DNA of 64,000 nucleotides from Paeniglutamicibacter psychrophenolicus (lineage in GTDB: Bacteria > Actinomycetota > Actinomycetes > Actinomycetales > Micrococcaceae): assembly GCF_017876575.1 (NCBI RefSeq), contig NZ_JAGIOE010000001.1, positions 3,390,443-3,454,442 of the forward strand. The letters are read 5' to 3'. Every line of letters starts with the position of its first letter. Positions within the stretch are counted from its first letter, which is position 1. This document shows positions 303-64,000 of the stretch, one piece after another. A program made the translations under genes and the position numbers. Under the pieces are notes generated by a model, which did no database searches, was not told the DNA's origin, and saw only the letters and a list, made by a program, of their open reading frames with translations.

Positions 303-2332
303 GCGGCCGGGGCGCGCACCCCGCCGGAGGCTGGACGGGGCGGGCACTGCGGGTGCTGGCCCTGCGGCTGCGCCACGAGGTGGCATTGACCCGGACGCTG
401 CGCGGGGACGGGCAGCGGGAGGGCTTCATGGGGCTGCTGCTCACCGCCGATGAGGCAGAGTCCATCCTGGCCGAGGCCGGCGGCCGGTTGCGGGCCTCGG
501 GCACCGCCGAGTCCGCCGCGGTGCTCGGCGACCTCGAGGCCCGGCTCCGCGCCGAACGCCGGGCCGGCAATCGGGATCCGCTGTGCGTCCTGGCCCGGGA
601 CCTGGGGCTTGACGACGCCGAGGTCGATCTGCTGCTGCTGGCGGCGGCCCCCTCCCTCGATGCCCGCTATGGGTTGGTCTACGGATACCTGAACGACGAC
701 ATGACCCGTCGCCACCTCACGCCCGACCTCGCGGTGCGACTGCTGCCCGGCGACGACGCGGACCTGTCCACCGTCAGGACGCTGCTCGGTTCCCGGGGCA
801 CCCTGTGCGCCGGCGGGTGCCTGGCCGTCGCCGAACAAGTCCCCTGGGTGCAGGCGGCGGTGCGGCTGGACGAGGACCTGCTGGAGCGGCTGCTGGGGGT
901 GGCCGGGACCTCAACCGTGCTTGAGGAGCATGGGACGCGCATCGGGCTTGGCGTCCGCACCCCCGGGATCGGACCGGGGCGCTGGCTGGTGGATACCGGG
1001 GCCGATGCCGTGGCGGCCGGCGTGCGGGCGGTGGATCTTGCCGCCCGGCGTGGCGGCGGGATCTATCTGCTCGATGCCGCCACGCTGCCGCCGGACCCGG
1101 CGGCGGCCGCCGCCCTGCTGTGCTCGGTGCTGCGCGAGGCGCACCTGGCCTCGTTGCTGCCGGTGCTGCGCGGCATGGACGAGGCCCCGGCGCACCTCTT
1201 GCGCCGGCTGGCACGGATCCTGCCCGCCCCGCTGCTGGTGCTCAGCGACCGGTCTGCCGTCTGGGAGGATGCAGGCCTTTGTGCCGACGCGCTGCCGGCA
1301 TGCACCCTGGCGCGCACCGGGGCGCTGGAGTTGCTGCTGGAGGGCCACCCGGCGAACACCCCGGGGTTCCGCGGCCGGTTGGGGCGCCTCGAAAGGCTCG
1401 ATCCGCTGCTCCTTGGCCGGCTGCTGACGGTGCACCGCGAACCGGAGGCGCTGCATGCGGCGGTGCGCGGGCGCCTCGCCCACGCCCTGGTGCACCTGGC
1501 CGAACCTGTCGCCAACGGATACACGCTCGAGGACCTGGTGCTTCCGCCGGCCACCCGCATCGCGCTGGACGAGGTGGTCGGCAGGCAGGGAACCGGTACC
1601 GTGGTGCGCACCGACTGGGAGCTGGGCCGCATCTTCGGGCGCGGCCCGGGAACCACGGTCCTGTTCAAGGGCCCCTCGGGCACCGGGAAGACCATGGCCG
1701 CCAGCGCCGTGGCCAACGCACTTGCGTTGCCGCTGTTCCGCGTCAACCTCGCCGGGCTGGTCTCCAAGTACATCGGGGAGACCGAGAAGAACCTGGATAA
1801 GCTCTTCGAGGCGGCATCCGGCACCGACGTGGTGCTCTTCTTCGACGAGGCCGACGCCATCTTTTCCAAGCGCTCCGAGGTCCGCGACGCCCACGACCGC
1901 TACGCAAACCTGGAAACCGCCTACCTGCTCCAGCGCCTTGAGACCTTTGCCGGGGTCGCGATCCTCGCCTCCAACCTGCACCAGAACATTGACGAGGCCT
2001 TCCTGCGGCGCCTCGACGCCGTCATCGACTTCCCCGCCCCAGCCGCAACTGCGCGCCGGGCCATCTGGCGGCGGCTGGAGCAAGGCAAGGCAAGCATGGA
2101 TACGGATGTGGACCTCGACCTGCTGGCCGAACGCTTCGAACTGACCGGAGGGCAGATCCGCAATGCCGCGCTGGCCGCGGCGCACCTGGCCGCCGCCGAC
2201 GGCGGGTCCATCACCATGGCCGCCCTGATGCGGGCGGTGGGCAGCGAACTGGCCAAGTCCGGCCGCCCGATCCGCCGCAACGACTTCGGCGAGCACTACC
2301 GCTTGCTGCGCCCAACCCGGGAGACGACATGA
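299..2332 (+). CDS. eCIS-associated AAA+ ATPase (Afp15-like)
   Basis: This 677-residue cytosolic ATPase has a single C-terminal AAA+ module. Walker A is GPSGTGKT at residues 458-465. Walker B is VVLFFDEAD around 511-519, followed by an arginine-rich sensor region (AFLRRLDAVIDFP). The N-terminal 400 residues are an alpha-rich region with an LDDAEVDLLLLAAAP...YGYLNDDMTRR segment, typical of the Afp15/Cis15 ATPases that accompany extracellular contractile injection systems. These are needed for assembly or cargo handling, although their exact step is not settled. The start codon overlaps the upstream tape-measure stop by 4 nt, and its own stop overlaps the next gene by 4 nt (ATGA), so all three are probably translationally coupled. 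Family assignment is firm; the precise role is inferred from context. Confidence 0.87.
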   Translation: MSGRGAHPAGGWTGRALRVLALRLRHEVALTRTLRGDGQREGFMGLLLTADEAESILAEAGGRLRASGTAESAAVLGDLEARLRAERRAGNRDPLCVLARDLGLDDAEVDLLLLAAAPSLDARYGLVYGYLNDDMTRRHLTPDLAVRLLPGDDADLSTVRTLLGSRGTLCAGGCLAVAEQVPWVQAAVRLDEDLLERLLGVAGTSTVLEEHGTRIGLGVRTPGIGPGRWLVDTGADAVAAGVRAVDLAARRGGGIYLLDAATLPPDPAAAAALLCSVLREAHLASLLPVLRGMDEAPAHLLRRLARILPAPLLVLSDRSAVWEDAGLCADALPACTLARTGALELLLEGHPANTPGFRGRLGRLERLDPLLLGRLLTVHREPEALHAAVRGRLAHALVHLAEPVANGYTLEDLVLPPATRIALDEVVGRQGTGTVVRTDWELGRIFGRGPGTTVLFKGPSGTGKTMAASAVANALALPLFRVNLAGLVSKYIGETEKNLDKLFEAASGTDVVLFFDEADAIFSKRSEVRDAHDRYANLETAYLLQRLETFAGVAILASNLHQNIDEAFLRRLDAVIDFPAPAATARRAIWRRLEQGKASMDTDVDLDLLAERFELTGGQIRNAALAAAHLAAADGGSITMAALMRAVGSELAKSGRPIRRNDFGEHYRLLRPTRETT

Positions 2333-5300
2333 GCATCGAATCAGGCACTCCGAGCCCGGGCCCGCCGGTTCATGCCCCCCGGGTCCCGGCACCCCCTGCC
2401 CCCGTGCGGGCTCCGGCCGGAGCCGAACCCGCAACCGACACCGGGGTTCCGGCGAGCGCCTACGGCTGGCTGGCCGAGGGCGGTTTCGCCGCCAGGCTGG
2501 GAAGCGGGCTGCGGTTGGGTGCCGACCTGCTGGCCGCCAGGGAGCTGGACCCCGCCCGGATCCCGCAGCCGCTGCCCGGGGTGCGGATCACCGGGCTGCG
2601 GGTCCGCGAGCGCCAGGTGCACCTGACCGGTTCACTGCTGGTGCCGCATCTGGATGCGAACGAGGTGCGCATCCGCCTGGATCGGGACGGCACCGCCCAC
2701 TTTTCCGCCCACGGGCAGACCCGCTTGCAGGTCCCGGCCCTGGGCAACCCGCGGGTGCGCATCGGCCTGGACGAGGCGGGCCGGCTCTCCGGCACCCTGG
2801 AATTCAGGGACCTGGATCTCTCGCCCCCACGCACCGAACTGGAAGCCACCGGGTCCGGCACCCTGGCGCTGGCCAACGGGAGGTTCAGCGGGCAGGTGCA
2901 CGCGGACTTGGTGTACCCGCGGGCCGGAAGCGCGGCCCTCGACGTCGGATTCGACGAGAACGGGGCGTTCACCGGTTCGGGCACCCTGACGCTGGCCCTG
3001 CCGTTCCTGGACGCCGTGGGCGCCACGATCACGGCCGATGCGGCAGGCAACCTGGCCGCCGCCGCCACCATCGATGCGACGGGGGCGCACTCCCCGCTGC
3101 CCGGCTTGTCGGTGGGCACCGGGCAGGTCGTCCTTGGCTTCGGCAATGGCCGGCCCACCGCCACCCTCAGCGGGTTCTCCGCCAGCTATTCCGGGGTCGG
3201 GTCCCTGTCGATCACCACCCTGGAACTCGGCGGCCGCAACCCCGGCTTCAGCGGAGCGGGCGAGCTGGTGCTCACCATCCCGGGCCTCGAGGAGGTCACC
3301 GGCCGGGTGGCGGTCACCAATTCGAGGGTGAGCGGAACGCTGCGCATTGACGCCAACAAATTCCCCGAGGGGCTGCCGCTGACCAACGGCTCCCTGACCA
3401 TCATCCTCTCCGAGTCCGGCCAGCTCGGATTCCGCGGCTCGGTCGGGGTGGCGCTGGAACCTGCGGCACGCGGGCGCCTGGAGGCCAGTTACGAGGAGGG
3501 CAGGTTCGCGCTGTCGACCCAGCTGGAACTGACCATCCCGGGCATGGCCCCGGTGCAGGTCACCGTCGCCTACCTTGACGGCGCGATTTCCGGGGCCGTC
3601 GACGTGCCGATCGATTCCGAGACGCTTCCGGGGCTCTCCGGGGCGATCCACGTCGAATACGCCCAGGACCGCTGGAGCGGCGAGACGACCCTGGCCTACT
3701 CGGCCGACGACGGCAAGCTTTCGGGCACCGTCACCGTGACTGTCACCCAAACCGAGGACAATTCCCTTCAGGTAGGCGGCAGCGGGTCGGTCACCGCGCA
3801 GTTGTTGCCGAACCTGGCCGGAACGCTTACCGCCACCATCCTGCCCGAGGGCGGGGTGGATGTCTCGGGCACCATCGAGGTGACCGAACCGGTGGAGCTT
3901 TTCGGGGAAAAACGGGTGGAAAAGGAGCTGTTTTCGCATTCGCAGAACATCCCGCTGTGGGCCATCCTGGTGGCGGTGATCCGCATCCGTGCCGGGGTGC
4001 GCGCGGGCATCGGGCCCGGGGTGTTCCGCAACATCACCGTCACCGGGTCCTACACCATCGGGGCCACCGAGGCGGATCCGAGCTTCACCGTCTCGGGCGA
4101 ATTGTTCATCCCGGCCTTCGTAGAGGGCTATCTCGCCTTCGGCGCCGGGCTCGGCCTGGATGTGGTGCTCGGTTCGCTGACCGGCGGCATCGAGGCCATG
4201 GGCACCGCCGGGATCTACGGGGCCATCAGCGTTATTCCGGAACTGAGCTACGAGGGTGGTCAGTGGTCGATCGCCGGTGTTGCGACGCTGGCGGCCGGGG
4301 CCCGGCTGAAACTGAGCCTGAACGCCTGGGCAGAGGTCGAGGCGCTGTGGGTCACGGTCTGGGACAACACCTGGGAATTGGCCTCCGTCACCATGCCGAT
4401 CGGCCCCGACCTGGCCCTGCAGGCGAGGATGAACTATGTCTTCGGTCGTCCGGAGCCCCCGGAACTGGAATTTTCCTCCACCGACATCGACTCCGAGTCG
4501 CTGATCCAATCGGCCATGCCCGAGGACGGCCCGGAACCTTCCGGTGCCCGCGAGGCCCTGGAAAACAAGGCCGAATGGCAAGGTGCCCTGCGCGAGGCGC
4601 GCACCGCGCCGGTCCCGGCCGAGCTGGCCGCCCAAGCAAGCCACACCGAGCCCGCACCGCAACCCGCCCGCCGGCCCCCGGCCCCCGGCGGCCCGCGTCC
4701 CGGTGCCGCGCGCGCCGATGCACCGGGACACCTCGGCGAGCCAACCGCGACTCCGGCCGCACCCGGCACCACGGCACCGGGTGCGGCGGCTGCGGCCGCA
4801 GCCGCACCGGATGACACGCTGCCCGGCCCCGTGCCGGCCAACGAGTTGCCCGCATCCAACGTGCCGCGCTACCCGTCACCGATTTCATTGCAGAGCCTTG
4901 ACGAGCCAGCGGCCCCCCTTCCGCGCACCAAGGAGCAGGAACGCCAGGACCTGGATGCGGCATCCCGCACCGTCGACCTGGCCTCGGCCCAGGCGAGCTC
5001 CAGCGGCACCCTTGACGACTACTTCCCGCGCATCAAGAACCGCTTCCGCTTGGCCACGCTGGGATACGACGGCGATTTCGAGACCGGATTCAAGGTCCTC
5101 GGCTCCATCAACCCGGAGTTCCGCAAGACCCTGGCCGGGGAACCGCTCCAGGGCAGCGGCGTGGACCCCGAGAACGATCCCGCCCACCAGACGGAGGTGA
5201 AGTTCTGGTCCGCCACATTGGCCGGCACCGCAGTCGGCATCGAGATGCAGGCATCGCCCCTGGGACCCGACCACCCGCTGGGCTCCGAGCCACGGGGACA

Positions 5301-6003
5301 AACCGGGCTGATGGACAGGCTGGGCAGCGAATACATCCGCGGGCACCTGCTCAACGAGCACCTCGGCGGGCCGGGGGAACCACGCAACCTGTTCCCCATT
5401 ACCCGCAGCGCCAACGCGCTGCACAGCAGCCGGATCGAGGAAACCATCAAGCGCTGGGTCAACACCGACAGGTACTGGGTGCGCTACCACGTCAAGATCG
5501 CGGGGTCGAACAGGATCGAGACCGATCATGGCCAGGACTACATCAATTCAACGATCCAGGCGCAGGCCTGGGTGCTGGACACGAACCTGGCTCCGTGGCG
5601 GAAAATCGAGACCGATATCACCTCGCATTATTCCCTCCAGTCGACGGCCACCAGGGAAGACGAAAATGCAACAAGCGTTGCCGGTGTGGCCGGCCACCGG
5701 GCACGCGCCGAGGACCTCGCCATCAATGTGGCGGTCTCCGGGTCCGGCCTGACCGCTTTCCCGAACCACGTCAAGGAAGACCTGGGGAAGATGCTGAAGC
5801 CCGGGACCACCTGGGCAGAGGTCCGTGAGAAGCTGGACAGGGCCACGGGTGTCGGCCCCGACACTGCCAGGGTGCTGCAGGAGGCCTACGGGCAGTCACT
5901 AAGTCGCAATGACGAGCAGGTGCTGTTGGCGACCGCCACCGACAAGCGGTTGCTGACCATCGCCGTGGACCATTGGGCAGCGATCATGGCACAGCTGGAA
6001 TAG
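2329..6003 (+). CDS. large eCIS cargo/effector-like protein with C-terminal endonuclease-like domain
   Basis: This 1224-residue protein has three visible parts. Residues about 50-540 are strand-rich and repetitive, with alternating Gly/Thr/Val stretches of the form G-x-L-x-L-x-x-P-G-L. Residues about 524-720 hold an EKELFSHSQNIPLW segment and a glycine-rich hydrophobic beta region like that in large proteins of other eCIS loci. Residues about 770-855 form a Pro/Ala-rich linker. The C-terminal part (about 865-1130) contains RGHLLNEHLGG (residues 1004-1014), then NLFPIT at 1020-1025 and N1029/H1032. This matches the RGH...N layout of DNA/RNA non-specific (beta-beta-alpha-metal) endonucleases, with H1006 the candidate catalytic residue. 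No signal peptide is seen. It overlaps the ATPase gene by 4 nt, so it is probably loaded as cargo. Toxic nuclease activity is inferred. No immunity gene is obvious downstream, which would fit a cargo delivered to foreign cells. I see no HExxH-type DUF4157 leader. Confidence 0.68.
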   Translation: MSIESGTPSPGPPVHAPRVPAPPAPVRAPAGAEPATDTGVPASAYGWLAEGGFAARLGSGLRLGADLLAARELDPARIPQPLPGVRITGLRVRERQVHLTGSLLVPHLDANEVRIRLDRDGTAHFSAHGQTRLQVPALGNPRVRIGLDEAGRLSGTLEFRDLDLSPPRTELEATGSGTLALANGRFSGQVHADLVYPRAGSAALDVGFDENGAFTGSGTLTLALPFLDAVGATITADAAGNLAAAATIDATGAHSPLPGLSVGTGQVVLGFGNGRPTATLSGFSASYSGVGSLSITTLELGGRNPGFSGAGELVLTIPGLEEVTGRVAVTNSRVSGTLRIDANKFPEGLPLTNGSLTIILSESGQLGFRGSVGVALEPAARGRLEASYEEGRFALSTQLELTIPGMAPVQVTVAYLDGAISGAVDVPIDSETLPGLSGAIHVEYAQDRWSGETTLAYSADDGKLSGTVTVTVTQTEDNSLQVGGSGSVTAQLLPNLAGTLTATILPEGGVDVSGTIEVTEPVELFGEKRVEKELFSHSQNIPLWAILVAVIRIRAGVRAGIGPGVFRNITVTGSYTIGATEADPSFTVSGELFIPAFVEGYLAFGAGLGLDVVLGSLTGGIEAMGTAGIYGAISVIPELSYEGGQWSIAGVATLAAGARLKLSLNAWAEVEALWVTVWDNTWELASVTMPIGPDLALQARMNYVFGRPEPPELEFSSTDIDSESLIQSAMPEDGPEPSGAREALENKAEWQGALREARTAPVPAELAAQASHTEPAPQPARRPPAPGGPRPGAARADAPGHLGEPTATPAAPGTTAPGAAAAAAAAPDDTLPGPVPANELPASNVPRYPSPISLQSLDEPAAPLPRTKEQERQDLDAASRTVDLASAQASSSGTLDDYFPRIKNRFRLATLGYDGDFETGFKVLGSINPEFRKTLAGEPLQGSGVDPENDPAHQTEVKFWSATLAGTAVGIEMQASPLGPDHPLGSEPRGQTGLMDRLGSEYIRGHLLNEHLGGPGEPRNLFPITRSANALHSSRIEETIKRWVNTDRYWVRYHVKIAGSNRIETDHGQDYINSTIQAQAWVLDTNLAPWRKIETDITSHYSLQSTATREDENATSVAGVAGHRARAEDLAINVAVSGSGLTAFPNHVKEDLGKMLKPGTTWAEVREKLDRATGVGPDTARVLQEAYGQSLSRNDEQVLLATATDKRLLTIAVDHWAAIMAQLE

Positions 6004-7117: not shown

Positions 7118-8926
7118 ATGACAGATGTCTCGCCCGCGAGCTACGCCGGCTACACGGATCTTGCCGGTCCCCCGGATCCACGGCTTGACCGGCTCGCCTT
7201 CCGCCGAATCCTGGAGGGCCGGGAGAAGTCGGTGCTCGGTTCGCTGCTGGTGCTGAACCTGGCGGCTGCGGCCGCGTTCATCGCCTTGCTCACGGCACTG
7301 GCCCTGCACTCCGACCCGGGCCCGTACGGCTGGGCCCTGTGGGCCTTGGTGGTGCTGCCCGAACTGCTCCGGCTGGCACAAAGCGCCGGGGTCGTCGCCT
7401 TTGCCGCCGTCGCGAGCGACCCGGTGCCCATGGAACCGGTGCCCGGGCTGCGCGTGGCGGTGTTGACCACCATCGTCCCGTCCCGGGAACCTGTCGAACT
7501 GCTCCTGAAGACGTTGCGCGCCATGCGGGCAGTGGAATACGACGGAGCGGTGGACGTGTGGATCCTGGACGAGGGGGACGACCCGGCGGTCCGCGCAGCT
7601 GCGGCATCGCTCGGGGTCAGGCATTTCACCCGGCTCGGGAACCCGGACTACAACACCTCCGGCGGCCGGTTCCGGGCCGGGACGAAGGCGGGAAACCACA
7701 ACGCGTGGCGCGATGCCCACGGCCGGGACTACGACATCGTCGCCCAGGTGGATCCCGACCATGTCCCCTTCCCCCGGTTCCTGTTGCGCACCCTGGGATA
7801 TTTCCGCGATCCGGACCTGGCCTTCGTCGTGGCTCCCCAGGTCTATGGCAACACCGGTAGCAGCCTGATCGCCAAGGCCGCCGCCGCCCAGGGATACATT
7901 TTCACAGGCATCATCCAGCGCGGGGGCAACGGCTTGGGTGCGCCGCTGCTGATCGGCACCAACCACCTCTACAGGATGAGCGCGTGGGAGCAGATCGGCG
8001 GTTACCAGGATTCGATCGTTGAGGACCACCTGACCGGCATGGCGGTGCACGCCGCGACCAACCCGGCCACCGGCGCCGCCTGGACCGGGGTTTACACCCC
8101 GGACATCCTGGCCGTCGGCGAGGGGCCCTCGACCTGGACCGACTTCTTCGGCCAGCAGGACCGCTGGGCCTCGGGCATCTGGCAGATCCTGCTCGGTGGC
8201 GGACGCGAAGCGCGCCGCCGGCTCGGCGCCCGGCAGGCCGCCGCCTACGTCTTCCTGCAGTCCTTCTATCCAAGCGTGGGTCTGGCCTGGATATTGGGCA
8301 CCCTGGCGAATATCACCCAACTCGTCTGGGCCCGGACCCGCACGGGCCCAGACGAGCTCGGGGTGCTGCCGTTGGCCCTCTGGTGCCTGGTGGTGTGCAG
8401 CTGGCTGCTGATCCTGCACCGGATGAAGCGCTGGTACCTGCATCCGGCCGAGCGCCGAACCTCGATCGCGCTGGCGCTGCTGGCGACGCTGGTCGCGGCC
8501 CCCGTGTATGCCGCATCCGCACTGGCCGCCCTGCTGCGCCGCACCCCCGCCTACGTGGTCACCGGCAAGGGACGTCTGCGCAGCCGCGAAAGGGCGCGCA
8601 CGTTCCTTCCCCACCTGCTGTGGGCAGCGGCCCTGGCGCTGGCGCTGGCGGCCGGCATCGCGGCCGGCACCGCGACCGGCACCGCGGCGGCAGCCTGGGC
8701 CTTGGTCGGCATCTCGGTGTGCCTGCTGCCTCCCGTCATGGCCCTGTCCCGTCCCCTTGGCCTCCGGCACGGAAGACATTCAGCACGGCGCTTCCATGCT
8801 GTCCGTCGTCGTAACCACCCATCACGTAGATTTCGGGGCCCAGCGCGGCAGCTGCCAGCCCCGCCCGCGGGACCGGCAGCGCAGGAATCCCCGCGGGCCC
8901 GTTCAGGCACTGCACTTGGGCACTGA
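7118..8926 (+). CDS. membrane glycosyltransferase family 2 (cellulose-synthase-like)
   Basis: This 602-residue inner-membrane enzyme would transfer sugars from a nucleotide-sugar donor to a growing surface or extracellular polysaccharide. Two N-terminal helices precede a cytosolic GT2 domain with VDPDH (around residue 210, the D-x-D metal/UDP site), IVEDH (the catalytic-base region) and QQDRW near residue 345 (the Q-x-x-R-W processivity motif). Four or more further hydrophobic helices follow. The ATG at 7118 is chosen because GGGGG lies 7-11 nt before it. The last 55 residues or so are Arg/Pro/Ala-rich and are read across the 3' end of the convergent TIR-Kelch gene (191 bp overlap). The true end may therefore be altered by a frameshift or a late stop. 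The product polymer is unknown. Confidence 0.85.
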   Translation: MTDVSPASYAGYTDLAGPPDPRLDRLAFRRILEGREKSVLGSLLVLNLAAAAAFIALLTALALHSDPGPYGWALWALVVLPELLRLAQSAGVVAFAAVASDPVPMEPVPGLRVAVLTTIVPSREPVELLLKTLRAMRAVEYDGAVDVWILDEGDDPAVRAAAASLGVRHFTRLGNPDYNTSGGRFRAGTKAGNHNAWRDAHGRDYDIVAQVDPDHVPFPRFLLRTLGYFRDPDLAFVVAPQVYGNTGSSLIAKAAAAQGYIFTGIIQRGGNGLGAPLLIGTNHLYRMSAWEQIGGYQDSIVEDHLTGMAVHAATNPATGAAWTGVYTPDILAVGEGPSTWTDFFGQQDRWASGIWQILLGGGREARRRLGARQAAAYVFLQSFYPSVGLAWILGTLANITQLVWARTRTGPDELGVLPLALWCLVVCSWLLILHRMKRWYLHPAERRTSIALALLATLVAAPVYAASALAALLRRTPAYVVTGKGRLRSRERARTFLPHLLWAAALALALAAGIAAGTATGTAAAAWALVGISVCLLPPVMALSRPLGLRHGRHSARRFHAVRRRNHPSRRFRGPARQLPAPPAGPAAQESPRARSGTALGH

Positions 8927-10214
8927 CGCCAAGGCCCGTGTCCCCGGCGATGGCACACGGCCCCGCACCGGGGATCCACACCGCGGCGGCGCTGTGCACG
9001 GGGCGCACCGACTGCCCCCGGCTGATCCCGTCCACCTGCACCACGTCCACTGTGCCGAACGCCGGGACGCCCGAGGCCCGATCCCGGCCCCCGATGATCC
9101 ACACCGTGCCGAATCCATCGCTGAGCGCGGCAGGCTTCTCCCGGGCAACGGAAAGCTCGCCGATCTGTTTCCACGCCCCCGCCGCCAGGGCGTAGACCTC
9201 CCTGGCGGCGGCGTGGTCAGTGCCGACGCCTCCGGCATAGACGATCCGGCTTCCGTCCCAGGCCGCAGCGCCGGCTTCCCGGCTTGCGGGCAGGGGCTCG
9301 TCCCGGAGCCATTCCCCGGTTCCGGCATCCAGCCGCAGCGTCGTGTCCACCGCACCGGCGGCACCCTGCCCGCCCACGAGGTAGAGGTCGGGCCCAGCCG
9401 CGACGAGGGCGCCGAAGGCGAGCGGTTCGGGCAATTGGGGGCCCGCGCTCCAGCTTCGGGTGGCCGGGTCGTAGATGTTCACATCATCCAGCAGTTCCCG
9501 GCCGTCCCTTGCGGATACCCCGCCGGCCACCCAGATCTTTTCCCCGTGGGCAGCCATCGATGCCCCCTCGAGCGCAAGCGGCGCATCGGGCAGGGGCTGC
9601 CACGACGCCGGGCCGGGGCGCTGCAGCAGCACCACGACGACGATGAGCACCACCGCAAGAACCCCGCCGATGGACGGCAGGGCCCAGCGAGGGAGCACAA
9701 ACCGTCCTGCGTGTTCCTCTCGCCACGAGGGCTTGGGCCGCTTCTTGGGGACTCCCACGATCCCTTCCAGCGCGATTATCAGCCGCCCGGCGTCGTACCG
9801 GAACCGGGTGGGACTGATTTCCACCGCCTGTTTGCCGGCCAGCGAGCGAAGCGGGGCGGGCAGCGCCGCCGCCGAGGGCATCGCGGCGCCGCCGACGAGC
9901 ACAGGGAAGACCTTGACCCCGGCGACCAGCGCACTTTCGACCTCGAGGCGGACGAAGTCCCCCGGATCATCGAGCCTGCGCCTGCCTTGCGCGTCGGCCA
10001 CCTCCAACCAGTCCGGGTCGATCACCACCAACACCGCCCGACACCCGGAAAGGGTCTCGGTGAGCACACCGGCAAATTCCTCGCCCGGTTCGATGGAATC
10101 GACGTCCATGAAAACGTGTTCCTCCCCGAAGTGCGCGGCAAGGGCGTCATAGACTCGGCCGGCGCTGCCCGTGGAGGTCGCCCGCCGATAGCTGATGAAG
10201 ATGGACTCGGACAT
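8736..10214 (-). CDS. TIR domain - transmembrane helix - Kelch propeller protein
   Basis: The protein has 492 residues. The TIR domain (about 1-150) opens with IFISYRR, has a DVDSIEPGEEF loop and a helix with E91/E93 (RLEVESAL) in the place of the catalytic glutamate of NAD-cleaving TIR enzymes. A basic stretch (KKRPKPSWREEH) precedes one hydrophobic helix at about 175-197, then five or six Kelch-type repeats of the IWVAGG / LYLVGG / WIIGG / IYVMGG form to the C-terminus. By the positive-inside rule the TIR should be cytosolic and the propeller outside. The ATG at 10214 is used because the TIR fold begins there; the frame stays open upstream but overlaps the previous gene. It is the last gene of the SLOG - DUF4231 - TIR operon, 8 bp after the preceding stop. 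Signalling or NADase activity is inferred, not shown. Confidence 0.87.
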   Translation of the reverse strand: MSESIFISYRRATSTGSAGRVYDALAAHFGEEHVFMDVDSIEPGEEFAGVLTETLSGCRAVLVVIDPDWLEVADAQGRRRLDDPGDFVRLEVESALVAGVKVFPVLVGGAAMPSAAALPAPLRSLAGKQAVEISPTRFRYDAGRLIIALEGIVGVPKKRPKPSWREEHAGRFVLPRWALPSIGGVLAVVLIVVVVLLQRPGPASWQPLPDAPLALEGASMAAHGEKIWVAGGVSARDGRELLDDVNIYDPATRSWSAGPQLPEPLAFGALVAAGPDLYLVGGQGAAGAVDTTLRLDAGTGEWLRDEPLPASREAGAAAWDGSRIVYAGGVGTDHAAAREVYALAAGAWKQIGELSVAREKPAALSDGFGTVWIIGGRDRASGVPAFGTVDVVQVDGISRGQSVRPVHSAAAVWIPGAGPCAIAGDTGLGVSAQVQCLNGPAGIPALPVPRAGLAAAALGPEIYVMGGYDDGQHGSAVLNVFRAGGQGDGTGP

Positions 10215-10222
10215 CGCGGGTC

Positions 10223-10723
10223 TCAGTCCTTGGTCGGCTCGGCGCCCTTGCCGGCCGATTCGGTCCAGGCAGCATGTTCCGTGCTCACGGATTCCTCGAT
10301 GAACCGGGCCAGCCTTTCCCGTCGCCGCTCCGGATTGGCGTAAGCGCCGACCCCGGCCGCAAAGAAGAACCCCTCGTGGCGCATGCGCTCGGCCGTGGAA
10401 CGGTAATTCAGCCATTTGGCGTGGAACTGGCCAATTTGTTGCAGGCCCTCGAAGAGCACGATGAGCCCACCGACCAGGGCTGTCAGCGCCGCCGGAGCGG
10501 CCAACGCGGCAAGCACCGTGACCGATGCACCGCTGGCGAGCGTCAGGGCCTTGAGACCCTGGTAGGCCCAGCGGGATCGGCTTGCGGCGCGGTCGTACCA
10601 ACGGAATTGGGCGCTGAACATCTGCCACAGCAAGTCCTGCGCGCCGTTTGAATCCTGCGGCTCGGGCAGGTCCGAGGCAAGTTTTTCCCATTCGGGGCGT
10701 CGTTTCCGTTTTGCCCGTGCCAT
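10223..10723 (-). CDS. DUF4231 / SLATT-like two-helix membrane protein
   Basis: The product has 166 residues. Two adjacent hydrophobic helices at about 52-74 and 75-96 are followed by the conserved soluble tail pattern W-L-x-Y-R-x-x-A-E-R-M-x-x-E, a GAYANPERRRERLARFIEE segment and a closing EHAAW. These are hallmarks of the DUF4231 branch of the SLATT superfamily, predicted by comparative genomics to form membrane effectors next to SLOG and nucleotide-signalling proteins. An AGGAG site lies about 7 nt before the ATG. It sits between the SLOG gene (28 bp upstream) and the TIR gene (8 bp downstream). A pore-forming or membrane-damaging role is inferred from the family, not visible here. Confidence 0.85.
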   Translation of the reverse strand: MARAKRKRRPEWEKLASDLPEPQDSNGAQDLLWQMFSAQFRWYDRAASRSRWAYQGLKALTLASGASVTVLAALAAPAALTALVGGLIVLFEGLQQIGQFHAKWLNYRSTAERMRHEGFFFAAGVGAYANPERRRERLARFIEESVSTEHAAWTESAGKGAEPTKD

Positions 10724-10751
10724 GGTCTTCTCCTAGAATTCGCGGTTGGCC

Positions 10752-11345
10752 CTAGTCTTGATCCTTGGGGCTTGGTTCGCATCCTTCGAGCGGTACGGGG
10801 AACGGTCCCCCGTCCTGCTCGGCGAGCGGATCGATGTCCCACAACGGAATGGACAGCGGGCCGCAGCGCTCGGCGAAGTCGTCGGTGGTCTCGCTCAGAC
10901 CCCGGGATGCGGGCCGGATTGCCAACGCCCTGACCGGTTCCGATCCGATGGCCCAAGCCCGTGCCCGTTCCAGCAGGACCTGGTTGTGGCGGGTAAAAAC
11001 GGCGGGATCGGCAGGATCCAGGGTTCCGGCCAGCGGCGGCCCGGTGGCAGTGAGCAGGGCGTTGAACCGTGCCACCCATTCCCCGCCGTGCGCCCGGATG
11101 CTGCTCAATTCGAAGGCCGGCACGTCAAAGGGCAGCAGGACCTTGAGCTGGACTCCGGCGGCCAGGGCGGCTTCGGCCACGATGATGTCGCTGCCGGAGG
11201 CAAGCGCGCCGACAGCAAGCCGCGGCCGGCTTCGCAGCAGCAGGCAGGTGAGGTGCCGGCGCAACGGCGCCTCGGCACGGGAAGGGAGCCGGGGCTGCAA
11301 TCTGTCGCGCAGGTCGGCCTGGACACCGGCAAACACCAGGATCAT
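10752..11345 (-). CDS. SLOG-fold putative nucleotide-sensing protein
   Basis: The protein has 197 residues and a Rossmann-like fold. It begins with a hydrophobic strand, MILVFAG, then carries GALASGSDIIVAEAAL (residues 46-61) and LKVLLPF (67-73). This is the G-x-D-x-x-x-x-E-A ... LPF pattern of SLOG-superfamily sensors or lipoprotein-associated LOG-like folds. In Thoeris ThsA a SLOG domain binds the cyclic ADP-ribose signal made by a TIR protein, so pairing here with a TIR gene is meaningful. The ATG at 11345 has GGAGG 10 nt upstream and starts exactly at the first strand. An upstream ATG at 11459 in the same frame would add 38 low-complexity residues and seems less likely. The last 50 residues are acidic and Pro-rich. 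Confidence 0.78.
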   Translation of the reverse strand: MILVFAGVQADLRDRLQPRLPSRAEAPLRRHLTCLLLRSRPRLAVGALASGSDIIVAEAALAAGVQLKVLLPFDVPAFELSSIRAHGGEWVARFNALLTATGPPLAGTLDPADPAVFTRHNQVLLERARAWAIGSEPVRALAIRPASRGLSETTDDFAERCGPLSIPLWDIDPLAEQDGGPFPVPLEGCEPSPKDQD

Positions 11346-11747: not shown

Positions 11748-12569
11748 TCACATCTCCGGCCCGGATTCGCGCAGTGCCGTGTACACCGGACGCAGCACCT
11801 CGGCCAGCGGGTGCGAGCGCACGGTCAGGTCCACTTCCGGCAGCTGGTCCACGAGCAATGCCGAACCACGTGTGCCGGGGCGCAGGGGAAGCGCTGCGGG
11901 CGATTCAAAAAATGCATCAAGCACGTCCGTGAGGGCAGCGCCGGCGCGCGAATCGTGCCCGCTCCCCGCGTCGGCCTCCCGCAAGCGCCCCAGCAGGTCG
12001 TCCCGCTCTCGTCCGCGCCAGGCAAGGATGCGGAACGGATCCTCGTCGAATTGTTCGGCCAGCAGATAGAACACGGCGGCCAGGTGCTTGCAGGGAACTT
12101 CCCAGTCCGGGCACGAACAGTCCATGCTCAATTCGTTGGCGCCGCGCGGGAAAAGCGACAGCCCTACGGAGGTAAAGACTTCTTCGATGTCGTCCGGCAT
12201 TTCACCGGCCAGCAGCGACGCGACATACCAGGCGTTGTTTGCCAGGGATTCCTCCACCGAAGCCCATTCGGACTTGCCGAACGCCGCGAGGCCTATCCGC
12301 ACGCGATACGGCTTGGACCGGGAGCCCTGCACGCTTGCTGTCACCGTTCCGGCATCAACCTTCAGTGACATCACTTGCCCACGCCGGGCATAGTTCTTTC
12401 CACGGGCCAGCCGCGACCCAACACCAATGCCCTCCAGCACCTCGATGAAACGTCCTGACCACCAGCTGGTGCCAATGGCACCACGCGCACTTCTGGCTTT
12501 CACACCACCCTGGACCGCCAGCGGGGAGGATTGCGGAAAAAACTGTGAATTGTAGCGGCGCCTAGTCAT
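11748..12569 (-). CDS. SWIM zinc-finger protein, helicase partner
   Basis: This 273-residue protein has a SWIM-type zinc site: C151-x-C153 ... C160-x-H162 (segment CSCPDWEVPCKHLAAVF). N-terminal WWSGRFIEVLE and YARRGQV segments are typical of the actinobacterial SWIM proteins encoded beside SNF2 helicases. The start overlaps the helicase stop by 8 nt, so the two are almost certainly co-translated and probably act together on DNA or nucleoprotein. The C-terminal third, after about residue 195, is Ala/Arg/Leu-rich without a recognised domain. Its substrate is not known. Confidence 0.86.
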   Translation of the reverse strand: MTRRRYNSQFFPQSSPLAVQGGVKARSARGAIGTSWWSGRFIEVLEGIGVGSRLARGKNYARRGQVMSLKVDAGTVTASVQGSRSKPYRVRIGLAAFGKSEWASVEESLANNAWYVASLLAGEMPDDIEEVFTSVGLSLFPRGANELSMDCSCPDWEVPCKHLAAVFYLLAEQFDEDPFRILAWRGRERDDLLGRLREADAGSGHDSRAGAALTDVLDAFFESPAALPLRPGTRGSALLVDQLPEVDLTVRSHPLAEVLRPVYTALRESGPEM

Positions 12570-15500
12570 CGACGGCCTCCTGTGACAGGGCGAACACGTC
12601 TCTCAGGCTCGCGGTGGACAGGTCCGTGAGCCACCCTTCCCCGTCGCCGACCACCATGTCCGCCAAGGCCTTCTTTTCTTCGATCATGGCATCAATCCGT
12701 TCTTCCAGGGTTCCGCGGCAGATGAACTTGCGCACCTGCACACTGCGCTTCTGACCGATCCTAAAGGCCCGGTCGGTGGCTTGGTTTTCGACCGCAGGGT
12801 TCCACCAACGGTCCAGGTGGATGACGTGGTTGGCGGCGGTCAGGTTCAGCCCGGTGCCGCCGGCCTTCAACGAGAGCAGGAAGACCGACGGCCCGTCGGC
12901 GGATTGGAAACGGCTCACCATTTCGGTCCGCTTCTGTCTGGATGTGCCGCCGTGAAGATAGGCAACCTCGGTGTCCAATCGTGTCGTGAGGTGCGGCAGG
13001 AGCATCTCGGCGAACTCGGTGTACTGGGTAAAGCACAACACCTTGTCTCCCTCCGCAAGGATCTCCTCCAGGATCTCCTCCAGGCGCATCACCTTGCCGC
13101 TGCGCTGCCCCACGTCCGAGCGGTCGTGCAAAAGCTGGGCGGGGTGGTTGCAGACCTGCTTGAGCTTGGCCATCGCCGCCAAAACGTTGCCACGACGTGC
13201 GATTCCCTCCGATCCCTCGATCTTCTCCATCATCTCGTCCACGACGGACTGATAGAGCGAGGCCTGTTCGCTCGTGAGCGTGTAGTACTGCTTGATTTCG
13301 ATCTTTTCCGGCAGGTCGTCGATGATGGACGGATCGGTCTTGACGCGCCGCAGCAGGTACGGCCGGGTAATGGCACGGAACCGCCGGGCCGCCTGCTCGT
13401 CGCCATACCGCTCAACGGGAATTGCATACCTTGCTCGAAACAGCTCCGCAGGGCCAAGCATCCCCGGATTCAGGAAGTCCATGATCGAGAACATCTCCCC
13501 CAGGCGATTTTCCACCGGGGTACCGGTGAGCGCGACCCTGTGCTGGGCCGATAGCCGCTTGACGGCCTTCGCTGCGCGTGAAAGTCTGTTCTTCACCGCC
13601 TGGGCCTCATCGAGCACGATTCGGTTCCAGATGCGGGACTCAAAAATCTCGACGTCGCGGGTGAGCGTCGCATAGGTGGTAATCATCAAGTCGGTGTCGG
13701 CCAGCGCAGACTCCAGCTCCGCGTCTCGCAGCCTCTCCGATCCATGGTGAACGTGCAACCGCATTCCGGGGGCGAATTTTGCGGCTTCGGCCTCCCAATT
13801 GCCAATCAATGACATCGGACAGACCAGCAGCGTAGTTCCGGAACCGGGATGGGCGTGACGTCGGACGGCCTCCAACGCGAGCAGCTGTACGGTTTTTCCC
13901 AGCCCCATGTCATCGGCCAGGCAAGCACCCAGTCCCAGATCCGCCAGGAAGTTCAACCAGGCCAGCCCACGTTCCTGGTAGGGTCGCAGCGTCGCGACGA
14001 AGTCCTGGGGAAGGGCCACCGGTTGGATGCTTGCATCAGCCGAACCATCCAGCAGGGAGCCCAGCCACCCATCGGCCTTGACCTCGGCGATGTCCAAGGG
14101 GAGTTCCGCGTCTTCGGGATGCATGGACGCGAGGCGCAATACCTCCGCGACGGTGCCGGCGCCCCCGCTGTTGCGCTCCAGGAACTCGATGCCCCGGCGC
14201 AGCTGCTCGGAGTCCACGGCAATCCATTGCCCACGCAGCCGGACCAGCGGGGCCTTGGCCCGGGAAAGTGCGTCGATTTCTTCATCGCTGAGCGTATTCT
14301 CGCCCATGGCGAGGCTCCACTGGAAGTTGCAGAGCTGTTCCATGCCGAAGGTCGGGGCGCGGCCGGTGTCATCACCCATCGGGGTGGAAGCCGAGAGTTT
14401 CAGGCCCAATTTCGCACGCTGGTCCCACCATGCAGGCAAGAGCACCCCGAATCCCTCTTCGGCGAGGGCAGGGGCTCCGTGGCGCAGGAAATCAAAGGCC
14501 GCCTCGGTGTCAAGTTCCATCGATTGCGGCCGAGATTGGCGCAAGCCGTGTTCGATGCCGGGATAGATGCGGGCGGCCTTCCCCAATTCACCCAGCAGGA
14601 TCTCCTGCGGACGCCCCAGCCAGCGGGAGAGGGCTCCGTCGTCCCTCCAGACCTGCTCGGCGGGAACCAACAGGCTCGGGTCTGCCGCGGACTGCAAGAG
14701 GAACTCCACGCGCCACCGTTGCGTGCCCGGCCGTGCAGGTTCACCCACCTCTGCGTCATTGATTTCACCGAGTCGAAAGGTTGCACGAGCCACTGAGGTG
14801 GCTTCGATGGCGTATCCGGCCCAGGGCGCCAAGGCGCGTTCCAGGTCCTCCAACGCAGGTTCCGGCGCGTTGACGTCCGCATTCGGGCTTGACAACGCCT
14901 CCAGCCAAGCCTCGACCACAGGGAGTTGCCCCGGTTTGCGGCCACGGCGAGGTGGCAGTATCCGCAAGTCCGTTGGAAGTCGTCGCCGAACCGCCGCATC
15001 GGTCAGCACGTCCAGCGCCGCGGCGACCAATTCGCCGGCATCCTCCGAACCCGGCTCTGCCCGAAACGACGGTGGCGTGGCAGCGGTCAAGTCCCCGAAC
15101 GCCAGGGCATCGGGTCCCCGCAGAACCGCACGCCAACGCGCCTGTGCCACCGGGGCTCCCTTCCCGTCCTTCTCCGTCCACGCAATCTCGGGGATGACCC
15201 TGCCGCGCTGCGCAAGCTCGTCCGCGAAGCGCACCAGTTCCTGGAGGAACCGAACCGACGGCGCCATGCGGGGATCGAAGGGCGGGGTGCCTTCCGCGAC
15301 GGAAAAGCCCTCGGGAAGCAACGCCCTCTCCAGCACCGTGCCGTGAGCCTCGGCATCGGATGCCGGATGGGGCCGGGCTCCGACGGCTTCCGGGCTCACC
15401 CACACCACGGGGACCAACCACGACAAGAGCGAGGGGTCGCCTGCGCCACGGCGCCGTGGAACCACACGCACAACTTCGGGAGAGTCAAGCGGCGACTGCC

Positions 15501-15705
15501 GCAGGGACGGGAGCCAAAGGGTGGTGCTGCCGACCGCACCGGGCTGCAGCCCCAGCATGACATCACCGGTTGCAGCGAAGGGATGGGGGCGCGCCGACCT
15601 CACTGCCTGGCTGGGGCTCTTGACGGTCTTCCCGGAGTCTTCCGCCCACAACCCGAGACCACGCTCGATCGACCAGAACGCATGGAGCACCAGCAAAAGC
15701 ATCAC
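12562..15705 (-). CDS. SNF2-family DEAD/DEAH helicase
   Basis: The protein has about 1047 residues. The C-terminal half is a full SNF2/RapA-type ATPase. Motif I is DDMGLGKT near residue 600, motif II is LDEAQAVKN near 700, a GTPVENRL motif III follows, and motifs V and VI are GTGLNLTAANHV and DRAFRIGQ near 965-985. The N-terminal half is the poorly characterised SNF2-associated region of bacterial members, with an acidic beginning (LWAEDS). It would translocate on double-stranded DNA and remodel bound protein. The start is uncertain: adjacent GTG (15705) and ATG (15702) precede LLLVLHAFW, and the nearest AAAGG is too close for either, so a TTG a few codons on is possible. It overlaps the SWIM gene by 8 nt. 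Confidence 0.9.
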   Translation of the reverse strand: MMLLLVLHAFWSIERGLGLWAEDSGKTVKSPSQAVRSARPHPFAATGDVMLGLQPGAVGSTTLWLPSLRQSPLDSPEVVRVVPRRRGAGDPSLLSWLVPVVWVSPEAVGARPHPASDAEAHGTVLERALLPEGFSVAEGTPPFDPRMAPSVRFLQELVRFADELAQRGRVIPEIAWTEKDGKGAPVAQARWRAVLRGPDALAFGDLTAATPPSFRAEPGSEDAGELVAAALDVLTDAAVRRRLPTDLRILPPRRGRKPGQLPVVEAWLEALSSPNADVNAPEPALEDLERALAPWAGYAIEATSVARATFRLGEINDAEVGEPARPGTQRWRVEFLLQSAADPSLLVPAEQVWRDDGALSRWLGRPQEILLGELGKAARIYPGIEHGLRQSRPQSMELDTEAAFDFLRHGAPALAEEGFGVLLPAWWDQRAKLGLKLSASTPMGDDTGRAPTFGMEQLCNFQWSLAMGENTLSDEEIDALSRAKAPLVRLRGQWIAVDSEQLRRGIEFLERNSGGAGTVAEVLRLASMHPEDAELPLDIAEVKADGWLGSLLDGSADASIQPVALPQDFVATLRPYQERGLAWLNFLADLGLGACLADDMGLGKTVQLLALEAVRRHAHPGSGTTLLVCPMSLIGNWEAEAAKFAPGMRLHVHHGSERLRDAELESALADTDLMITTYATLTRDVEIFESRIWNRIVLDEAQAVKNRLSRAAKAVKRLSAQHRVALTGTPVENRLGEMFSIMDFLNPGMLGPAELFRARYAIPVERYGDEQAARRFRAITRPYLLRRVKTDPSIIDDLPEKIEIKQYYTLTSEQASLYQSVVDEMMEKIEGSEGIARRGNVLAAMAKLKQVCNHPAQLLHDRSDVGQRSGKVMRLEEILEEILAEGDKVLCFTQYTEFAEMLLPHLTTRLDTEVAYLHGGTSRQKRTEMVSRFQSADGPSVFLLSLKAGGTGLNLTAANHVIHLDRWWNPAVENQATDRAFRIGQKRSVQVRKFICRGTLEERIDAMIEEKKALADMVVGDGEGWLTDLSTASLRDVFALSQEAVDD

Positions 15706-63543: not shown

Positions 63544-64000
63544 TCACTCGAAGAAGTCCTCGTCGATGTCCACCACGTCGTAGCTCTGTTTCACCTGCAC
63601 ACCGACCCGGTACTTAATCATCAGTGAAACCAGACGCTTACCGTCGATCAGTACAACTCGGCTCTGAATTCCGGCTGCATAGTCGCGCGCGTGCTGGGTG
63701 AAGGTACTAGTCGTGATGAACACACCCCGGCTGGCACCAAATCCGTGCAGCGCACCAATGAACGCCTGGATGGTCTCGCGGCCGATGCTGTTACCTTCGG
63801 CGTAGCGCTTGGCCTGCACATAGATCCGTTCAAGTCCCAGCGCGTCCTGGTCGATGACGCCGTCCACTCCACCGTCGCCGGTGCCGCCGATCCTCCTGCC
63901 GCGCTGCTCGGCGCCACCATAGCCCATGGCAAGCAGCAGTTTGACGACGGCTTCCTCGAAGAAGTCGGGATGGCTCTCGAGCAACCGGGCCAGTAGCGCG
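63544..64000 (-). CDS. Mrr-like restriction endonuclease, C-terminal part (cut by window end)
   Basis: About 151 residues are visible, open to the window edge, so the start is missing. The segment FFEEAVVKLLLAMGYGG, then TGDGGVDGVID and ERIYVQAKRYAEGNSIGRETIQAFIGAL, is the PD-(D/E)xK core of Mrr-type nucleases: D in GGVDG and Q-A-K. GVFITTSTFTQHARDYA follows. Full Mrr proteins have an N-terminal winged helix, which would lie beyond the window. Mrr enzymes cut modified DNA. Co-location with hsdR suggests a restriction island. Confidence 0.88.
   Translation of the reverse strand, partial: ALLARLLESHPDFFEEAVVKLLLAMGYGGAEQRGRRIGGTGDGGVDGVIDQDALGLERIYVQAKRYAEGNSIGRETIQAFIGALHGFGASRGVFITTSTFTQHARDYAAGIQSRVVLIDGKRLVSLMIKYRVGVQVKQSYDVVDIDEDFFE

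Follow-up and report, generated by a model that had tools for sequence, protein, structure and literature searches.

A SLOG, SLATT and TIR–Kelch gene trio in Paeniglutamicibacter psychrophenolicus is a candidate receptor-type TIR conflict system

Does a bacterial TIR protein that appears to display a propeller outside the cell belong to Thoeris, or to another kind of nucleotide-signalling system? The question is raised by three adjacent genes in a 64,000-nucleotide stretch of the Paeniglutamicibacter psychrophenolicus genome (contig NZ_JAGIOE010000001.1; hereafter the window), which encode a SLOG-fold protein, a DUF4231/SLATT membrane protein, and a protein joining a TIR domain, a transmembrane (TM) helix and a Kelch propeller. 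An initial annotation made from the sequence alone had called this trio a Thoeris-like conflict system with an external sensor. We put about an even chance on its being a receptor-type TIR conflict system, probably directed against phages or competitors and abortive in action. According to this proposal the outward Kelch propeller would recognise an envelope cue or ligand, and clustering would activate the TIR as a nicotinamide adenine dinucleotide (NAD) hydrolase, or NADase, at the inner face of the membrane. The NAD-derived messenger (ADP-ribose or one of its cyclic isomers) would be bound by the separate SLOG protein, and the liganded SLOG would then gate or assemble SLATT, so that the membrane is permeabilised and the cell stops.

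The three genes are co-directional, with intergenic gaps of 28 base pairs (bp) between SLOG and SLATT and 8 bp between SLATT and TIR–Kelch, an arrangement that the initial annotation had given and that re-reading of the coordinates bore out (Table 1). Their reading frames can be taken as true genes rather than chance frames because intact homologues are present in a second genome and in distant relatives. In that second trio genome (G111, a P. psychrophenolicus record) the SLOG, SLATT and TIR–Kelch frames are intact at 98, 100 and 97% identity, and the ratios of nonsynonymous to synonymous substitution between the two genomes are 0.37, 0 and 0.18, calculated from few substitutions. Synonymous divergence between window positions 8739-11345 and locus L018 was ~0.025 for SLOG and SLATT and 0.081 for TIR–Kelch, and the higher value may reflect recombination. 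The 3' end of the TIR–Kelch gene also shares 191 bp (8736-8926) with a convergent glycosyltransferase gene that ends at 8926, and both overlapping genes were matched over their full length in the second trio genome.

Table 1. Positions of the trio genes and of the parts of the TIR–Kelch protein, numbered from the first base of the window
Feature	Positions	Strand	Remarks
SLOG-fold protein gene	10752..11345	minus	197 amino acids; predicted to bind (or process) a nucleotide signal
DUF4231/SLATT membrane protein gene	10223..10723	minus	166 amino acids; predicted membrane effector
TIR–TM helix–Kelch propeller gene	8736..10214	minus	492 amino acids; Pfam TIR_2 and Kelch; from translation
TIR domain, residues 4-150	9765..10205	minus	
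Glu91 codon	9942..9944	minus	aligned with SARM1 E642
TM helix, residues 180-197	9624..9677	minus	mean hydropathy 2.9 across 18 residues
Kelch propeller	8769..9605	minus	about six repeats, counted by eye

The TIR domain is closest to SARM1 in fold and also resembles it in sequence. An E642A structure is among the structural matches, and Glu91 aligned with the glutamate of the SARM1 HKEI motif, the catalytic residue E642. This position was invariant in five aligned TIR rows; the catalytic glutamate column is kept, and NADase activity is predicted. Resemblance to an NAD hydrolase would also suit a TIR that kills by NAD depletion itself, leaving SLOG and SLATT as regulators or as a separate module. 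We regard this explanation as quite unlikely, since the trio forms one closely spaced run and the repeated pairing of SLOG with TIR genes described below suggests signalling over depletion alone.

The remainder of the protein suggests a receptor-like layout. Four lysine or arginine residues lie in the 20 residues preceding the TM helix and one in the 20 following it, and because of this charge bias the window protein is suggested to have an N-in/C-out topology, with a cytoplasmic TIR and a propeller exposed on the outside. The C-terminal part matched Pfam Kelch_6 (1.1e-18) and Kelch_1 (6.1e-18) as well as the Kelch protein 9tsn in PDB sequences (2e-25). An AlphaFold2 model of the full protein had a mean predicted local distance difference test (pLDDT) score of 43.7 and was good for the TIR only, with residues 156-492 below 50, a weakness that the mixture of propeller types in the alignment probably explains. 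Toll-like and IL-1 receptors, as described in the part of PMC8635717 used here, share the combination of an ectodomain, one TM helix and a cytoplasmic TIR that is predicted for the window protein. In contrast to those receptors, the window protein has its TIR at the N-terminus (the reversed order), carries a propeller rather than leucine-rich repeats or immunoglobulin (Ig) domains, and keeps the SARM1-type glutamate; the likeness is best regarded as an analogy of layout, not of descent.

Structural comparison with VIA-align gave the window SLOG protein a Rossmann-like SLOG fold nearest to YpsA, so that both folds named by the initial annotation, SLOG and TIR, were found. Further structural matches were LOG proteins and TRPM2, the latter solved in the presence of ADP-ribose; the TRPM2 match is one of common fold and is no proof of ligand. 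The protein had no Pfam family at E<=1, and a SLOG profile search of PDB sequences returned no match. YAcAr was weakly matched by 2 of 12 SLOG relatives, at best at 3.8e-4, under its cut-off. Some SLOG-fold proteins act as enzymes, and the presence of LOG proteins among the structural matches fits an alternative that we consider doubtful, in which the product of the TIR is sensed by SLATT directly. SLOG would then serve as a further enzyme or as an off-switch, acting for instance as a nucleotide hydrolase or phosphoribohydrolase in the production, trimming or removal of the signal. Against such an enzyme, the SLOG family consensus does not show PGGxGTxxE, the signature of LOG enzymes.

The window SLATT protein matched Pfam DUF4231 at 1.8e-17 (64.1 bits, cut-off 24.7) and SLATT_1 at 0.0039, under its cut-off; its best match among PDB sequences was weak (0.041). 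Hydropathy revealed a single hydrophobic stretch of ~35 residues, with peaks at residues 59-75 and 74-90 and room for two short helices, and a simpler TM scan called one segment at 73-91. The parts list of the initial annotation is right; the two SLATT helices it named would fall within this one stretch. We read SLATT as the effector because a signal-gated pore or membrane toxicity is predicted for it in PMC7159879 and an effector role in PMC9503650, and because phage defence by DRT10 requires its SLATT gene (PMC12632851); these and the other papers cited by PMC number are cited for the portions of their text used here. A SLATT paralogue that is 64% identical to the window protein stands alone in each of the two trio genomes (L003 7788-8288; L019). 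It is flanked by parA/scpA/scpB-like genes on one side and by a transporter gene on the other, with no window-type SLOG or TIR gene adjoining.

One line of comparative evidence came from the family Micrococcaceae, where a SLOG profile of 15 sequences found members in 5 of 395 genomes: the two trio genomes, Arthrobacter hankyongi (G546, L085), a Micrococcaceae metagenome-assembled genome (MAG; G078, L084), and a genome taken as Arthrobacter sp. H14-L1 (G056, L086). A same-strand TIR–propeller gene lay downstream of SLOG in all five loci, with a Kelch propeller in two and a PQQ-type propeller in three. The trio genomes, with Kelch propellers, place SLATT between SLOG and TIR, while in L084 and L085 the TIR gene begins 23 bp past the SLOG gene. 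The L085 propeller matched Pfam PQQ_2 at 4.7e-70, and that of L084 is nearly identical by eye. At L086 a second TIR gene intervenes, and the propeller is PQQ-like by alignment and appears frame-broken. This intervening gene (L086 2260-3432), between the SLOG–TPR-S and TIR–PQQ genes, encodes a TIR protein whose C-terminus weakly resembles CD225/interferon-induced-transmembrane proteins (0.0085, under cut-off). Patatin-like phospholipase genes were seen on the opposite strand near both Arthrobacter loci (L085 13041-14174, by Pfam; L086 5631-6752, by sequence likeness).

A second line of support came from f21, a family in which two genomes encode TIR–TM–Ig-like proteins with a predicted TM helix. 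Ig-like ectodomain matches were to He_PIG (3.5e-8) and Big_2 (3.1e-6) in L055 and to Big_2 in L057 (0.0052, under cut-off). At L135 the TIR–TM–Ig-like gene is divergent to the gene of a 526-amino-acid protein with a SLOG-like N-terminal motif and a SLATT-like region (DUF4231 1.2e-4, SLATT_3 4.1e-4), and the window SLOG profile picked up relatives of this N-terminus, the best at 9.3e-7, when a small database was searched. The protein is probably a SLOG–SLATT fusion, as expected if SLOG feeds SLATT, and with the TIR–TM–Ig-like protein would form an independent triad; we consider it supportive and not proven. Such a direct joining of a SLOG-like part to a SLATT-like part would also argue against SLATT as the sensor of the TIR product. 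The wiring set out by the initial annotation gains comparative support from the five Micrococcaceae loci, the probable L135 fusion and the N-in charges of the window protein, though it is still a wiring that we infer.

Associations of SLOG with TIR and SLATT genes also occur elsewhere. Of the 16 SLOG loci of a GTDB scan, 4 have a window-type TIR; another 6, from a Propionibacteriales MAG, Microbacterium paludicola, Brevibacterium, Leucobacter, Microbacterium ihumii and Agromyces, have SLOG genes encoding 647 amino acids with short TIR-like genes adjoining. These short genes are ThsB_TIR by Pfam in the one tested of those six (L096), and likewise in the similar locus L041. L041 (G400) has a single run made up of a SLOG–TPR-S gene, two TIR genes of the ThsB type and one SLATT_3+SLATT_1 gene, the last flanked by SLOG–TPR-S and one of the two TIR genes. 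On a Rhizobium plasmid (L052), one strand holds genes for SLOG, DUF4231/SLATT_1, patatin and TPR-S with other genes interspersed, the annotated patatin coming after SLOG and SLATT, and the opposite strand has a CAP12/Pycsar-type TIR. SLOG comes after TIR, MoxR and CHAT–TPR genes on a Streptomyces plasmid (L053) and is convergent with a TPR-S gene in Paraburkholderia (L051). Loci were read for four of the five plasmid matches. The TPR-S domain was seen in SLOG relatives from L041, L085, L086 and L096. Two marginal SLOG matches (G406, G157) had no phmmer match in their loci (L048, L049).

Several observations weigh against our proposal. The exact trio was found only in two close species, and phmmer found no window-type SLOG or TIR near 12 other SLATT loci, including the solo paralogue of both trio genomes, a count that is an upper bound since ThsB-type TIRs such as those in L041 escaped the query. 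A widely conserved trio was rejected on these loci, on the presence of SLOG and TIR–Kelch in 2 of 15 genus genomes and on the class lists given below. By phmmer, 6 of the 16 SLOG loci (five Frankia-type, one Acidimicrobiales MAG) lacked a window-type TIR or SLATT, and a Pfam scan of five neighbours from two of those six detected no TIR and no SLATT. The L084-L086 loci show no SLATT, and their SLOG is the N-terminus of a protein of 654-669 amino acids with TPR-S (by Pfam scan of L085 and L086). Their PQQ proteins have a weak membrane segment (1.0, 1.5 and 1.9, against 2.9 in the window protein), and lysine and arginine counts in two of the three, L084 and L085, do not favour N-in. Within f21, the SLATT matches of L135 fall just under the Pfam cut-offs, its SLOG compares weakly with the window SLOG profile (hhalign probability 6%), and at L134, the TIR–TM–Ig-like locus of the other genome, neither SLOG nor SLATT was matched next to the TIR gene.

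Two further comparisons bear on the same point. Relatives of the 526-amino-acid protein, mainly of its SLOG part, were common, occurring in 31 of 197 class genomes, and one stretch was inspected from each of 21 of these, L135 included. By the profiles used, 17 of the 21 loci had no TIR or SLATT. This number is an upper bound, as the SLATT-like part of L135 escaped the SLATT profile and only window-type TIRs had gone into the TIR profile; the other four were L135, L156 (a SLATT fusion suggested by full-length similarity at 30%), L161 (SLATT) and L172 (a convergent TIR). SLOG by itself is no marker of the system. In a TIR tree, the window TIR grouped with those of G327 and G326 (Frankia) and the L084-L086 TIRs with those of f21 (support 87/81 and 87/85), and the five SLOG-linked TIRs did not form one clade; the SLOG–TIR pairing may therefore have arisen twice, or parts may have been exchanged.

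Within the proposed chain, the step from TIR to SLOG is drawn because Thoeris offers a precedent for it (PMC11204291), and the weakest point is SLOG as the receiver. Fusion to TPR-S, a sensor domain by its Pfam name, means that SLOG need not be the sensor, which favours the doubtful alternative of SLOG as an enzyme; in such relatives TPR-S could be the receiver, or SLATT may sense the signal itself.

The trio is rare and accessory, a conclusion we draw because few genus or class genomes have it and because none was found downstream of rpsA in other members of the genus. SLOG and TIR–Kelch were each present in 2 of 15 genus genomes, all 15 of which have rpsA; the ~15 kb downstream of rpsA in 10 others contained no trio, no glycosyltransferase and no SWIM or SNF2 genes. 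The SLATT query matched 3 of 149 family and 10 of 394 class genomes, which are lower bounds because it missed G400, whose SLATT gene Pfam detects, and the SLOG query matched 10 of the 394; the genome of the window was the only one on both class lists. SLATT had no plasmid match. Neither SLOG nor SLATT matched INPHARED phage records (tblastn, E<=0.01) or any PADLOC model (E<=1), and these absences, like the probably outward propeller and the other cell-surface-type ectodomains of relatives (PQQ, Ig-like), would suit a module for envelope stress or developmental signalling that has no role in conflict. Such a module strikes us as unlikely in view of the patchy, accessory distribution and of the patatin, CAP12-type TIR and MoxR/CHAT genes that adjoin some relatives.

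SLOG, SLATT and TIR superfamilies are reportedly combined in the nucleotide-centric conflict systems of Burroughs and colleagues (2015), which resemble the trio in these superfamilies, in a TIR as the predicted signal maker and in SLATT as the predicted effector with two TM segments. From the sequences, we hold with moderate confidence that the window system is of this TIR-signalling, nucleotide-centric type. TIR–SLATT pairs are recorded in phages (PMC9503650), and TIR occurs together with SLATT in GAP1 systems (PMC7159879). Compared with the systems as set out in the portions of those two papers used here, the window differs in that its TIR belongs to a propeller-bearing protein predicted to cross the membrane once, and in that SLOG and SLATT are each encoded by a small gene of their own.

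Thoeris, as given in the part of PMC11204291 used here, consists of a ThsB TIR and a ThsA that is either SIR2–SLOG or TM–macro. The trio resembles it in a predicted TIR enzyme, in a SLOG fold as in SIR2–SLOG ThsA and in a membrane arm as in TM–macro ThsA. It differs in having no SIR2 or macro domain, a stand-alone SLOG, and a TIR that is membrane-bound with an ectodomain. In Pfam this TIR matches TIR_2, with ThsB_TIR unlisted at E<=1, but the PADLOC ThsB1 model did match it (6.2e-11, residues 4-71). No SIR2 or macro Pfam match and no match to the PADLOC ThsA model was found in the three trio proteins, the rest of the genome not having been searched for ThsA. Membership in Thoeris was rejected on this absence of ThsA from the trio, so that "Thoeris-like" holds as an analogy; as a membership it fails, with no ThsA-type effector and a SLOG that has no Pfam family. 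DRT10, composed of a reverse transcriptase, a non-coding RNA and SLATT, shares SLATT, there proposed to be controlled by the nucleic-acid product (PMC12632851, in the part used here); no reverse transcriptase was found in the trio, which has TIR and SLOG instead. Operons of TPR-S (Pfam PF20308) with TIR and SLOG share a homologous SLOG and neighbouring TIR genes (L041, L085, L096), whereas the window trio lacks TPR-S by Pfam and has SLATT in its place. TPR-S operons have been linked to prokaryotic ASK-signalosome-type systems.

Other genes of possible interest surround the trio. A contractile-injection-system-like cluster (tube, sheath and baseplate-like genes, by eye; locus L131, 19 kb, overlapping the first window bases) reaches the window start. 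After it, at 353-6003, come the genes of a winged-helix AAA+ ATPase and then of a 1224-amino-acid protein whose tail weakly matches a nuclease (Endonuclea_NS_2, under cut-off), ~2.7 kb from the trio. Upstream of the trio, at 11748-15705, lie a SWIM-domain protein and a DUF3670/SNF2 helicase as a pair. The SWIM protein was matched in 2 of 15 genus genomes, over just 33-35 residues in the P. psychrophenolicus record; SNF2, looked for near rpsA only, was absent in the 10 others and partial in the second trio genome. Strict dependence of the trio on either group was rejected, as in the second trio genome the trio is intact while the nuclease-tailed gene was matched over 142 of 1199 residues, and the best SWIM and SNF2 matches covered 33 of 230 and 436 of 1046. 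A possible Mrr-type restriction endonuclease (63544-63984, by eye) lies at the right edge of the window.

The initial annotation did not know the combination as a described system; the combination is less new than it held because the TIR–SLATT link is already in print, and the SLOG–SLATT association is contained in the Pfam name of SLATT. Among the matches listed by our literature search, none described a SLOG–SLATT–TIR operon whose TIR protein carries a TM segment and a propeller, and the 2015 and 2020 papers of Burroughs and Aravind, which lie outside it, may draw some such arrangements. The portion of a review used here (PMC9153377) mentions that some TIR proteins, in prokaryotes and others, have transmembrane regions, and that both plants and bacteria have TIR–NBD–WD40 proteins. 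What is known is thus the parts and the TIR–SLATT theme, and what is new is the receptor-like arrangement as an unusual variant.

Only tentatively, we propose that Actinobacteria may have their own Toll-receptor-like family, in which an intracellular catalytic TIR and one TM helix carry an exchangeable outward ectodomain (Kelch, PQQ or Ig-like) that would read extracellular or envelope cues, and an NAD-derived messenger would open a SLOG-controlled SLATT pore, making up an outside-sensing branch of TIR immunity. The charge counts of two of the PQQ relatives and the lack of a SLOG or SLATT match in the second Ig-type genome speak against such a family. If it exists, TIR second-messenger signalling in bacteria would be coupled to a receptor facing outward, an arrangement familiar mainly from the Toll and IL-1 receptors of animals. 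The trio would then offer a compact three-gene system for direct test of the SLOG-to-SLATT step, and the exchangeable ectodomains would provide natural comparisons for finding what is sensed.

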